Virus record (IMG/VR): IMGVR_UViG_3300037294_000424
Coordinates: 1-63,728 of that record
Length of the DNA: 63,728 bases
Source: a virus
Reading direction: 5' to 3' (one strand)
Part shown: positions 2,359 through 35,843 of the stretch, piece after piece
Position numbering within the stretch: position 1 is the stretch's first letter
Layout of the letters: each line of letters begins with the position of its first letter
The notes under the pieces: model-generated
What the model saw: only the letters and a program-made list of their open reading frames with translations
What the model was told of the DNA's origin: nothing
Databases searched by the model: none
Program-made: the position numbers and the translations under genes

Positions 2359-2399
2359 TAGGGGTTTTGCGCCCATCCCCTCGAAATTAACCTTAAGAG
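2359..2399. repeat. Left arm of 41-bp perfect inverted repeat
   Basis: This arm is the exact reverse complement of 3417-3457. The two arms bracket 1,017 bp that holds a strong promoter, a structured leader and small unknown genes. A FimB-sized tyrosine recombinase is encoded about 1.6 kb to the left. Confidence 0.9.
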
Positions 2400-2448
2400 A
2401 ATTTCTATACGTGATCTGAAATTTAAAAGCCTTTGAGATAAGAATATA

Positions 2449-2559
2449 ATGTCTGCCGCGGTGGTTAACTTGGCGCGCGCGTTAGCTAAGGCGTTACCAA
2501 TAAAGACGTTTGTAGAATTTCTTTCCCGTTTTTTGAATAAAATTAAAATAAAATATTGA
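2449..2559 (+). CDS. Possible 36-aa basic amphipathic peptide
   Basis: A short ATG frame just inside the left inverted-repeat arm. It encodes an Ala/Leu-rich helix followed by a Lys-rich tail (NKIKIKY), the composition of a membrane-active peptide. The stop codon overlaps the -35 box of the next promoter. The ribosome site is weak (TTGAGATAAG upstream). Coding status rests on composition and position only. Confidence 0.3.
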   Translation: MSAAVVNLARALAKALPIKTFVEFLSRFLNKIKIKY

Positions 2560-2584
2560 CGGTGCGATATAGGTGCGATATATT
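2556..2584 (+). promoter_or_regulatory. Strong sigma-70 promoter with tandem GGTGCGATATA
   Basis: TTGACG (2556-2561), a 17-bp spacer and TATATT (2579-2584). The spacer contains two tandem copies of GGTGCGATATA, a likely operator for a regulator. The same layout occurs before the 35538 gene. Confidence 0.75.
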
Positions 2585-2590
2585 TAAACC

Positions 2591-2644
2591 GTTCTCAGGG
2601 AACAACTAAGAAGCCCACTGTATTAGTAGGGCGAAAGTTAAGGA
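2591..2644 (+). ncRNA. Structured 5' leader, copy 1 (two hairpins)
   Basis: Hairpin 1 is GTTC/GAAC (2591-2603). Hairpin 2 is GCCC-ACT, a GTATT loop, AGT, a bulged A and GGGC (2613-2632). It is followed by TAAGGA as ribosome site (2639-2644). The second copy at 35477-35530 keeps both hairpins but changes the paired bases together (ACT/AGT here, ACC/GGT there), which supports a real RNA structure. It lies in the untranslated region of the 2654 gene. Confidence 0.65.
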
Positions 2645-2653
2645 AAAAATATC

Positions 2654-2887
2654 ATGGCTAATTTTACAATCAACTCCCGTATATTTGGTTTAACTGAATT
2701 TTTTATGCCTGACAATGGCGGTTATGTGCGCATCGAATCGACAGGTAAGTCGGGCACCCTAGCCTCTCAAATTTGCGAGCGTGGCGGCTTTTCTGGCGGC
2801 ACAATATCTGCAACCCCGTCAAATTTTAAAAAATTCTGCAAGCGTTGGCACAAACAGCGCCTACAAAATCGTATTGACGCCGAATAA
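2654..2887 (+). CDS. Small hypothetical protein behind structured leader
   Basis: A 77-aa protein, not recognised. It has a Gly/Ser-rich middle and a basic C-terminus (KKFCKRWHKQRLQNR). Start ATG follows the structured leader and a TAAGGA ribosome site, under a near-consensus promoter, so strong early expression is expected. It lies in the cassette between the 41-bp inverted repeats. A different small protein follows the same leader at 35538. The set-up resembles anti-defence loci of mobile elements, but nothing in the protein itself shows a function. Confidence 0.7.
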   Translation: MANFTINSRIFGLTEFFMPDNGGYVRIESTGKSGTLASQICERGGFSGGTISATPSNFKKFCKRWHKQRLQNRIDAE

Positions 2888-2952: not shown

Positions 2953-3357
2953 ATGGCTATCAAAAAATCAGTGCGCTTAGTCGATGACACTATCCGCACT
3001 TGCAATAATCTAACCCAAAGCGGTGACGTAAATTGGTCAGGTTCGCTTAATGCAATGTCTGAACAGTTCAATATACTCATTGAAGAAAATACGCCTTTCT
3101 TTCAACCAGAGCAGTGGACTGTTTTTTATTGCTTGTACAACGGCTACGTATCTCACCCCGACATAAAAGAAGAAGCAAAAAACCTACCGTGGCATGTCAG
3201 CGAGGGCTATCAGTATGATGAACAAGTAAGGCATTTTCTAGGTGATGAAGCTCAATCGGCGGCGTTCGTTGAGGTGCTTAAGCTTATGCCTCTTTCTCAG
3301 AGGTTGGCTGTCATCTATAAGGCACGCGCTTATTGGAGAAACGGTCCAGCGGTTTAG
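2953..3357 (+). CDS. Hypothetical protein, second gene of the inverted-repeat cassette
   Basis: A 134-aa, mostly helical protein with many aromatic residues and no motif I recognise. A clear ribosome site (AAAGGAA) stands 8 bases before the ATG. It lies 65 bp after the 77-aa gene, probably in the same transcript, and ends 59 bp before the right 41-bp inverted-repeat arm. Confidence 0.7.
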   Translation: MAIKKSVRLVDDTIRTCNNLTQSGDVNWSGSLNAMSEQFNILIEENTPFFQPEQWTVFYCLYNGYVSHPDIKEEAKNLPWHVSEGYQYDEQVRHFLGDEAQSAAFVEVLKLMPLSQRLAVIYKARAYWRNGPAV

Positions 3358-3416
3358 ATGGGCAACCATTCTTTTTGATTTTCATCATCATAACTTATGA
3401 GATTGGTTGAAAAACA

Positions 3417-3457
3417 CTCTTAAGGTTAATTTCGAGGGGATGGGCGCAAAACCCCTA
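3417..3457. repeat. Right arm of 41-bp perfect inverted repeat
   Basis: Reverse complement of 2359-2399 over all 41 bases. Beyond it lies the promoter region of the baseplate operon. Confidence 0.9.
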
Positions 3458-34288: not shown

Positions 34289-34398
34289 GGTGGTATGGGA
34301 TATAGCTCAAGTTACTATGGGAAATAGCTCAAGTTACTATGGGAAATGGCCCAAGTTACTATGGGAAATGGCCCAAGTTACTATGGGAAATGGCCCAA
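34289..34398 (+). repeat. Five 22-bp iterons upstream of rep
   Basis: Four clean units start at 34311, 34333, 34355 and 34377 (core GTTACTATGGGAAATGGCCCAA); the first clean unit differs at two bases. A degenerate unit precedes at 34289. A 22-bp period places all copies on the same DNA face every two helical turns, as expected for Rep-binding iterons. Confidence 0.9.
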
Positions 34399-34476
34399 GT
34401 TAAATTAATTTTTACTAACACCCCTGTATCGCGCTATTGTGGGGGAAATAAAAACACCCCATAGCGCAGTGATACT

Positions 34477-35190
34477 ATGAATAATGTAACCCCGCATAAG
34501 AGCAAAAAAATAATCAGTCAGTCTAACGAATTGACTGAGGCGGCCTACTATCTAGGGCTGAAGGCAAAGCGGGTACTGTGGATCTGTTTATCTCAAATTG
34601 GGAAAAAAGATAATCACGACGGGGTGTTTACTGTGTTGGTTTCTGATTACCAAAGCTTATTTGAAGTGGGGATATCCACAGCCACTAACGATGTTAGGGA
34701 TGGACTAAGAGAGCTTGGCAGAAGCACAGTTATCTTTCACCCTAAGTCTGGGGAATACTCAGAAGTAGAGCGCCCTTGGCTATCTGAAATAGCGACTAAA
34801 AGCGGTCGAGGCAAGTACCTAGTTGAGTTTAACTACAAGCTTGTGCCTTACATCGTGGGCTTGACGCAACAATTCACCACATTCAACTTGCAAGATTGCG
34901 GCAGGCTGAACAGTGTAAGGACAATCAGGCTTTACGAAAGCTTATGCCAGTATCGCTCATCGGGCGTATGGGCTGTGGGGGTGGACTGGCTAACGCGCCG
35001 TTATCAGTTGCCCACTTCTCAAAGGGATAATTTTGCCGAGCTTAAAAGAAGCTTTCTAGATCCGTCCATTAAACGCATTAACAATGAAACGCCTCTTACA
35101 GTGTCTTACATCGAGAATGCCAAAAACAACAAGGTCGTGTCGATAGTCTTCAATATCGTGGATCAGAAGTCGCTCGAAGAAACGCATTAA
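34477..35190 (+). CDS. Rep_3 family plasmid replication initiator
   Basis: A 237-aa protein with the two winged-helix layout of Rep_3 initiators (pPS10 RepA, F RepE type). The first domain includes SQSNELTEAAYYLGLKAKR and a RVLWICLSQI helix; the second has RLNSVRTIRLYESLCQY (about 147-163) and WLTRRYQLP. Rep monomers bind the iterons to open the origin; dimers repress rep. Iterons on both sides indicate copy control by handcuffing. This gene is the main proof of plasmid maintenance. Confidence 0.9.
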   Translation: MNNVTPHKSKKIISQSNELTEAAYYLGLKAKRVLWICLSQIGKKDNHDGVFTVLVSDYQSLFEVGISTATNDVRDGLRELGRSTVIFHPKSGEYSEVERPWLSEIATKSGRGKYLVEFNYKLVPYIVGLTQQFTTFNLQDCGRLNSVRTIRLYESLCQYRSSGVWAVGVDWLTRRYQLPTSQRDNFAELKRSFLDPSIKRINNETPLTVSYIENAKNNKVVSIVFNIVDQKSLEETH

Positions 35191-35360
35191 CTTGGGCTAT
35201 TCCCCATAGCTAACCAATTCCCCCTGACGGTGCGATTTTTTATAGCAAGGCAAGGCGTTAACTTGGGCCATTTCCCATAGCTAACCAATTCCCCCCGACG
35301 GTGCGATTTTTTATAGCAAGACAAGGCGCTAACTTGGGCCATTTCCCATAACTAACTAAG
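35188..35360 (-). repeat. Downstream inverted iterons within 71-bp repeats
   Basis: Two 71-bp units (35188-35258 and 35259-35329) and a partial third (35330-35360). Each starts with the iteron core in inverted orientation to the upstream array (TAACTTGGGCCATTTCCCAT). The first two also contain GACGGTGCGATTTTTTATAG. The first unit begins on the rep stop codon. The layout is like incA of P1, where extra iterons downstream of rep limit copy number. Confidence 0.9.
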
Positions 35361-35441: not shown

Positions 35442-35470
35442 TTGCAGGTGCGGCATGGGTGCGATATATT
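35442..35470 (+). promoter_or_regulatory. Strong promoter, second copy of the 2556 layout
   Basis: TTGCAG (35442-35447), 17-bp spacer and TATATT (35465-35470). The spacer has GGTGCGGCATG and GGTGCGATATA, matching the tandem elements of the promoter at 2556-2584. Confidence 0.7.
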
Positions 35471-35476
35471 GAATCC

Positions 35477-35530
35477 GTTCCCAAGGAACAGCTAAGAAGC
35501 CCACCGCATTGGTAGGGCGAAAGTTAAGGA
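35477..35530 (+). ncRNA. Structured 5' leader, copy 2
   Basis: Hairpin 1 is GTTCC/GGAAC (35477-35489). Hairpin 2 is GCCC-ACC, a GCATT loop, GGT, a bulged A and GGGC (35499-35518), then the TAAGGA ribosome site (35525-35530). Paired bases differ from copy 1 in a compensating way, while loops, bulge and flanks are kept. Confidence 0.65.
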
Positions 35531-35537
35531 AAGAATC

Positions 35538-35843
35538 ATGAAAAACTTAAATGACCTAAAAGTAACTAACATCGAATCCAACACAGAGTTCGGTTTCTTT
35601 TTTGTAGAATTTAGCAATGGGAAGTCGTTGCAGTGCTGCTTAAAGGCTTTACGCCAAAGCGAAGAAGAACATTTTGAAAACGGCCCAATATTTTTAAATC
35701 AAATTGAGCATGATAATAGCGGGTTTTCCGATGGCTTATGCGCAGACTGTAACGAGTGGGCGGTTGTAGATGGTGAGTGGGGCCATATTATTGACTTCTT
35801 AATCGAACGCGCGCGAGAAAATGGCGTTCAGATTGTAGCGTAA
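35538..35843 (+). CDS. Small acidic hypothetical protein behind structured leader
   Basis: A 101-aa acidic protein, pI clearly low by composition, with a CADCNEWAVVDGEWGH segment near the middle. No family recognised. It shares promoter, leader and ribosome site with the unrelated 77-aa gene at 2654, but not the coding sequence. A terminator follows. The strong promoter and leader point to an early, highly made protein; small acidic proteins of this type are often inhibitors of host factors, which is inference. Confidence 0.7.
   Translation: MKNLNDLKVTNIESNTEFGFFFVEFSNGKSLQCCLKALRQSEEEHFENGPIFLNQIEHDNSGFSDGLCADCNEWAVVDGEWGHIIDFLIERARENGVQIVA

Follow-up and report, generated by a model that had tools for sequence, protein, structure and literature searches.

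In acr-aca operons, an exchangeable anti-CRISPR or other small gene is followed by a conserved regulator gene under one operator-bearing promoter, and a transient burst of expression has been described for these operons. AcrIF24 and AcrIIA1 are anti-CRISPR proteins that also repress themselves, and in the Aca2 system an RNA hairpin adjoins the ribosome site of an anti-CRISPR operon. CUP elements enter the comparison through the ArdK system of IncN and IncW plasmids. There, one repressor serves several unlinked promoters that carry a conserved direct-repeat sequence (PMC9723621). In the establishment regulons of the pLS20 family (Reg_p576, EGeRS), an RHH-type repressor acts on repeated conserved promoters, and plasmid establishment genes are expressed in a transient burst on entry (PMC8708921). 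The early anti-defence regulon of SIRV2 places a near-identical regulatory sequence before unrelated small counter-defence genes and aca8 (PMC11065993). Klebsiella plasmids carry an AcrIE9-AcrIE10 operon (PDB 9wdl, 8ji9, 9m7t), whose second product blocks Cascade assembly via Cas7e (PMC13131331).

Here we describe a locus in the 63.7-kb viral record IMGVR_UViG_3300037294_000424, analysed at its full length of 63,728 nt (hereafter, the window). We consider it probable that this locus is a portable, autorepressed, acr-aca-like expression cassette for counter-defence genes of the anti-CRISPR type, equipped with a new structured leader.

Two promoter-leader units in one viral record

The window encodes a Rep3 initiator with iteron-like repeats, and its PHROGs and Pfam families include a ParM-type segregation protein, DarA, a ddrB-type ParB domain, tail sheath, baseplate and portal. 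Judged by these families, it is a P1-like phage-plasmid; a first reading from gene layout as a conjugative plasmid was dropped on the same PHROGs and Pfam assignments. The iteron-like repeats are 22 bp long and flank the Rep3 gene in opposite orientation (34294-34403 and 35188-35350).

A sequence-only reading had proposed that the window contains a duplicated unit of promoter, two hairpins, bulged A and ribosome site in front of different small proteins. Both units lie where it placed them (copy A, 2556-2653; copy B, 35442-35537), with their common -35, -10, hairpins, bulged A and Shine-Dalgarno correct to the base, and the proteins downstream are indeed unlike each other. A BLAST search of the record with copy A as query returned copy B as its sole further match, with 87% identity over 90 nt (E=1e-26). 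The reading's picture of a bare promoter-leader was right about the unit itself but missed a conserved third gene (2953-3357) and a direct-repeat operator, and with these two the locus is therefore laid out as an acr-aca-like operon. The coordinates of all features are collected in Table 1. The copy A operon is bracketed by a 46-nt inverted repeat with 1,007 nt between its arms, as if it lay in an invertible or inserted segment; the core of the arm had no match in other viral contigs.

Table 1. Coordinates of cassette features in the window
Feature	Position	Strand	Detail or basis
Left arm of 46-nt inverted repeat	2359..2404	+	96%; repeat search
Copy A promoter	2556..2584	+	-35 TTGACG 2556-2561, 17-bp spacer, -10 TATATT 2579-2584
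Copy A operator repeats GGTGCGATAT	2561-2570 and 2572-2581	+	11-bp period, overlaying promoter
Copy A hairpin 1 (GUUCU/GGAAC)	2591..2603	+	Expected mRNA 5' end; covariation, 13 leaders; fold
Copy A hairpin 2 and basal helix	2605..2638	+	Covariation; covariance model 82.8 bits
Copy A basal helix	2605-2607/2636-2638	+	Part of hairpin 2
Copy A internal loop AAGAA / GAA	2608-2612 / 2633-2635	+	Part of hairpin 2
Copy A lower stem	2613-2616/2629-2632	+	Part of hairpin 2
Copy A upper stem	2617-2619/2625-2627	+	Part of hairpin 2
Copy A bulged A	2628	+	Invariant
Copy A Shine-Dalgarno AAGGA	2640..2644	+	Directly 3' of basal helix; sequence
Copy A cargo, 77-aa AcrIE9 homologue	2654..2887	+	phmmer to PDB 9wdl, E=4.9e-10, residues 4-70
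134-aa conserved protein, putative autorepressor	2953..3357	+	Protein family; AlphaFold; Foldseek to AcrIE10
Right arm of 46-nt inverted repeat	3412..3457	+	96%; repeat search
Copy B promoter	35442..35470	+	-35 TTGCAG 35442-35447, -10 TATATT 35465-35470
Copy B operator repeats	35447-35456 and 35458-35467	+	Sequence
Copy B hairpin 1 (GUUCC/GGAAC)	35477..35489	+	Fold
Copy B hairpin 2 and basal helix	35491..35524	+	Bulged A 35514; covariance model 80 bits
Copy B cargo, 101-aa protein	35538..35843	+	84% identical homologue in Shewanella L022

Operator repeats between -35 and -10

Two GGTGCGATAT-type repeats, direct repeats of (G)GTGCGA exactly 11 bp apart, occupy the whole 17-bp spacer in both copies. 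This period held in 17/17 promoters tabulated. The conserved gene is preceded by such a promoter at 17 of the 18 distinct loci whose upstream sequence is long enough, in phages and plasmids of various kinds; the exception, L022, has hairpin 2 without the repeats. A tandem operator of one-turn period between -35 and -10 would suit a repressor that blocks RNA polymerase. The operator half-site GGTGCGAT also occurs at 35229-35236 and 35300-35307, once in each of two 71-bp repeats located behind the Rep3 gene and just upstream of copy B; the putative regulator might touch the replication origin as well.

A covarying leader RNA

The sequence-only reading had described the hairpins as carrying compensating changes between copies A and B. 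Only one true compensated pair separates the two copies (U-A to C-G in the upper stem of hairpin 2), the differences in hairpin 1 and the basal helix being one-sided. Further homologues make the compensation clear: across 15 leaders, 93.2% of cells in hairpin 2 and its basal helix are paired compared with 83.8% in shuffles, and five pairs change on both sides. The covariation score was 0.319 versus 0.157 in shuffles, with 0/500 shuffles reaching it; the shuffles keep relatedness, so this count is not a formal probability. When the hairpin 2 alignment of the 15 leaders was slid, at most 46% of cells paired. Covariation thus gives strong support to hairpin 2 with its basal helix. In the hand segmentation, the ACU/AGU basal helix is replaced by ACA/UGU in L039 and by UUU/AAA in L012; the covariance-model alignment puts the L039 helix elsewhere and scores it as unpaired. 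Hairpin 1, segmented by hand in 13 leaders, pairs in 52/52 cells. It takes six helix types, and counting each distinct type once gives p=0.003; its variants include GUUC/GAAC, GUAC/GUAC, GUGC/GCAC and GUGU/ACAC.

The bulged A is invariant (15/15 leaders), and the purine internal loop AAGAA/GAA is nearly so. Conservation of unpaired bases inside covarying stems suggests that the leader is recognised as a site and is more than a plain hairpin. The Shine-Dalgarno stays single-stranded in the predicted folds of both copies. An Rfam scan of the leader gave no family match at the gathering score; the sequence-only reading, too, had not recognised the RNA as a named family.

The covariance model also found further leader copies, including the second complete unit of the Shewanella aestuarii plasmid described below and one between two cargo genes (L009:3525-3604) with no promoter repeats in front. 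The leader is thus kept apart from the promoter, since it is present without promoter repeats both there and in L022. Loci L015-L019 have promoter and regulator with another single hairpin in place of the leader, which is therefore common but not essential. Locus L004, with a regulator of the same subgroup as L015-L019, has the leader, and leader and regulator occur together in most loci.

The conserved downstream protein

Nearly every cassette ends in a gene of the 2953 family. The protein had no Pfam, NCBIfam or PHROGs identity and, in particular, no Pfam or NCBIfam match to a named HTH Aca family. Its AlphaFold model, built from 13 sequences, has a mean pLDDT of 85.6. The top four Foldseek matches of this model were all AcrIE10 (probability 0.99-1.00, TM 0.56/0.65, E=0.04-0.2), among them an AcrIE10-DNA complex, and AcrIE10 stood well apart from all other matches listed. 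Sequence profiles of the two families did not match significantly (hhalign P 0.02-0.1), so the likeness is at the level of fold only, and we describe the product as having a predicted AcrIE10-like fold. In the model, a strand-like KKSVRLV is followed by helices 11-21 and 28-46, which looks like a ribbon-helix-helix N-terminus; the fold matches listed included no structure of this class. Since AcrIE10 itself blocks Cascade assembly, the 2953 product may, by analogy, be both CRISPR inhibitor and repressor.

Exchangeable cargo and relatives

All-against-all comparison divided the genes lying between promoter and regulator into at least 13 unrelated families. Sequence comparison identifies the copy A cargo as homologous to the anti-CRISPR AcrIE9 (its AlphaFold model, from two sequences only, had a pLDDT of 50 and was too poor for use). 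PADLOC, Pfam, NCBIfam and PHROGs gave nothing usable on the cargoes, nor did a PDB sequence search with three others, and most cargoes match nothing known by these profile, PADLOC and PDB searches; their counter-defence role is putative. Copy B has its cargo alone, with no regulator gene of its own. In Shewanella sp. SG41-4, a homologue of this cargo forms an in-frame fusion with the regulator (L022:3650-4402, 250 aa); a leader of the copy A/B type stands in front, and the promoter repeats are missing. Because cargo homologue, leader and regulator are joined at this locus, copy B can be tied to the regulator-bearing system.

Further copies are found on Shewanella plasmids, in a Pseudoalteromonas phage, in a P2-like phage and in other viral contigs. 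DNA similarity gave two carriers of the unit, a Shewanella xiamenensis plasmid and Pseudoalteromonas phage vB_Pun_Y3, and a pattern scan added a P2-like viral contig; in all three, a cargo gene is followed by a homologue of the window's 2953 gene. With the 2953 protein itself as query, 14 to 16 of the loci found were viral, and the others lay on two Shewanella plasmids, in a phage and on a Shewanella contig. The family is rare in sampled species genomes: 2/129 from Shewanella matched, and among 395 from the order there was one clear match and a weak one. In a Shewanella aestuarii plasmid (L048:700-1680, minus strand), two complete promoter-leader units stand in tandem, both having operator and leader, ahead of genes for 252 aa and 169 aa, with the regulator after the second, so the two-unit arrangement of the window recurs. 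On sequence evidence, the cassette is shared among phages and plasmids from marine and other aquatic bacteria. The sequence-only reading had likened the unit to portable cassettes for small proteins in anti-defence islands, and its presence with compensating changes in several kinds of phage and plasmid, its at least 13 cargo families and its AcrIE9-homologous cargo all support this.

Plasmid records with a homologue of the copy A cargo number 2,392, and most of them are conjugative plasmids of Klebsiella. In the examples examined (Klebsiella, Shewanella, Photobacterium) the next gene belongs to the AcrIE10 family, the Klebsiella one being AcrIE10 itself. We compared ten of these plasmid acrIE9-acrIE10 loci (L042-L046, L050-L053, L055). 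The palindrome GTATGACANNTGTCATAC lies in their promoter spacer, exact in 9/10, and is followed by a structured leader with the hairpin GCC-GAA-GCGC..GCG-GGUGA-GGC, the lower stem of which is compensated in Klebsiella (GGC/GCC). The covariance model of the cassette leader did not detect the Klebsiella leaders, and we therefore do not claim a common origin for the two. Both kinds of operon occur on Shewanella xiamenensis plasmid NZ_CP106875, the GGTGCGATAT-type cassette (L003) about 9 kb from the AcrIE9-AcrIE10-type operon (L043).

Proposed mechanism and alternatives

In our preferred reading, the strong promoter would be free when the phage or plasmid enters a cell, and would fire. The transcript would begin with a 5'-terminal hairpin followed by the second structured hairpin adjoining the Shine-Dalgarno, and this leader would make the message for any small cargo stable and its translation efficient and perhaps open to control. 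The AcrIE10-like product of the last gene would then bind the two direct repeats and shut the promoter once the element is established. The outcome would be a transient burst in which cargo and regulator are made before the regulator closes the promoter. A single regulator (2953) would act on copy A in cis and on copy B in trans.

Some alternatives concern the role of the leader. It could be a passive mRNA stabiliser and ribosome standby, with hairpin 1 guarding against RNase E entry, hairpin 2 keeping the ribosome site open and no protein bound. The position of hairpin 1 at the predicted +1, the single-stranded Shine-Dalgarno and the different hairpin in L015-L019 all fit, but a passive hairpin needs neither the bulged A nor the AAGAA/GAA loop, whose conservation equals or exceeds that of the stems, and we regard this account as possible but the less probable one. 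The AcrIE10-like protein might instead be a putative dual repressor, like Aca2, acting on the DNA operator and on the RNA leader. A bulged-A RNA site abutting the Shine-Dalgarno, the joint occurrence of leader and regulator, and the promoter-less leader before the second cargo inside the L009 operon would agree with this, and Aca2-RNA complexes are known (PMC11239489). That L015-L019 keep the regulator without the leader, when L004 in the same regulator subgroup has it, argues the other way, and we hold dual repression to be rather unlikely. Unlikelier again is a triple use, in which the 2953 product would be Cas7 inhibitor, direct-repeat DNA repressor and translational repressor at the bulged-A leader, such that any cargo acquiring the leader would join a two-level regulon.

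The RHH-like N-terminus, the short two-gene operon and the location on plasmids and phages would also befit a toxin-antitoxin operon, in which a small variable toxin precedes an autorepressing RHH antitoxin. However, one regulator family accompanies at least 13 unrelated cargoes rather than one cognate toxin family, the copy B cargo stands alone and copy A carries an AcrIE9 homologue, which leaves this explanation improbable. Hairpins near a promoter before counter-defence genes also recall the Frpo/ssi-type single-stranded DNA promoters of plasmid leading regions, which would allow expression on entry (PMC11541004). Here, single-stranded DNA around the promoter folds no more stably than shuffles (z=-0.64), the long stem containing -35 and -10 that defines Frpo does not form, and the conserved hairpins, situated downstream of +1, show the covariation of a transcript; we give a promoter of this type hardly any credence.

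Comparison with known systems

Counter-defence genes share no sequence and are hence hard to find. A covariance-model leader tied to one regulator family offers a search handle for unknown ones, and has so far brought out no fewer than 13 cargo families, including an AcrIE9 homologue. From the autorepressed cassette proposed here it would also follow that proteins of AcrIE10 fold are autorepressors and that an extra control at the RNA level operates in some anti-CRISPR operons. No description of the leader, the operator or the regulator family was found in the mostly open-access literature that our search covered.

Set against the systems introduced above, the cassette shares with the ArdK regulon a repeated promoter-operator before unrelated genes on one element, as in window copies A and B and on the S. 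aestuarii plasmid. ArdK is a KorA-type HTH protein with its repeats at -35 (PMC9723621), whereas the cassette has its repeats between -35 and -10, another predicted fold and a structured leader; identity with CUP/ArdK was rejected on the protein, since neither profile searches nor the fold matches listed yielded KorA or ArdK. The pLS20-family regulons belong to Bacillus conjugative plasmids and have other sequences (PMC8708921), and the cassette differs in occurring with exchangeable cargo in phages, plasmids and a phage-plasmid. The SIRV2 regulon uses an archaeal promoter before mostly single genes, and the available portion of its description mentions no RNA structure (PMC11065993). Control by Aca2 involves RNA and DNA binding, and its RNA complex is known (PMC11239489). 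That system likewise has a hairpin by the ribosome site, but the fold of its regulator is unrelated, and RNA binding in the cassette is a conjecture. Copy A resembles the AcrIE9-AcrIE10 operon of Klebsiella plasmids in its AcrIE9-family cargo, the predicted AcrIE10-like fold of the next product, an operator-like repeat in the -35/-10 spacer and a structured leader; that operon differs in its GTATGACANNTGTCATAC palindrome in place of GGTGCGATAT direct repeats and in a regulator without significant sequence match. Relative to acr-aca operons, with which it has its gene order and operator-bearing promoter in common, the cassette has a regulator of predicted AcrIE10-like, RHH-like fold rather than HTH, a covarying two-hairpin leader and a second unit without its own regulator. 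The RNA element is absent from Rfam, and we rate the cassette as a relative of the known acr-aca-like systems.
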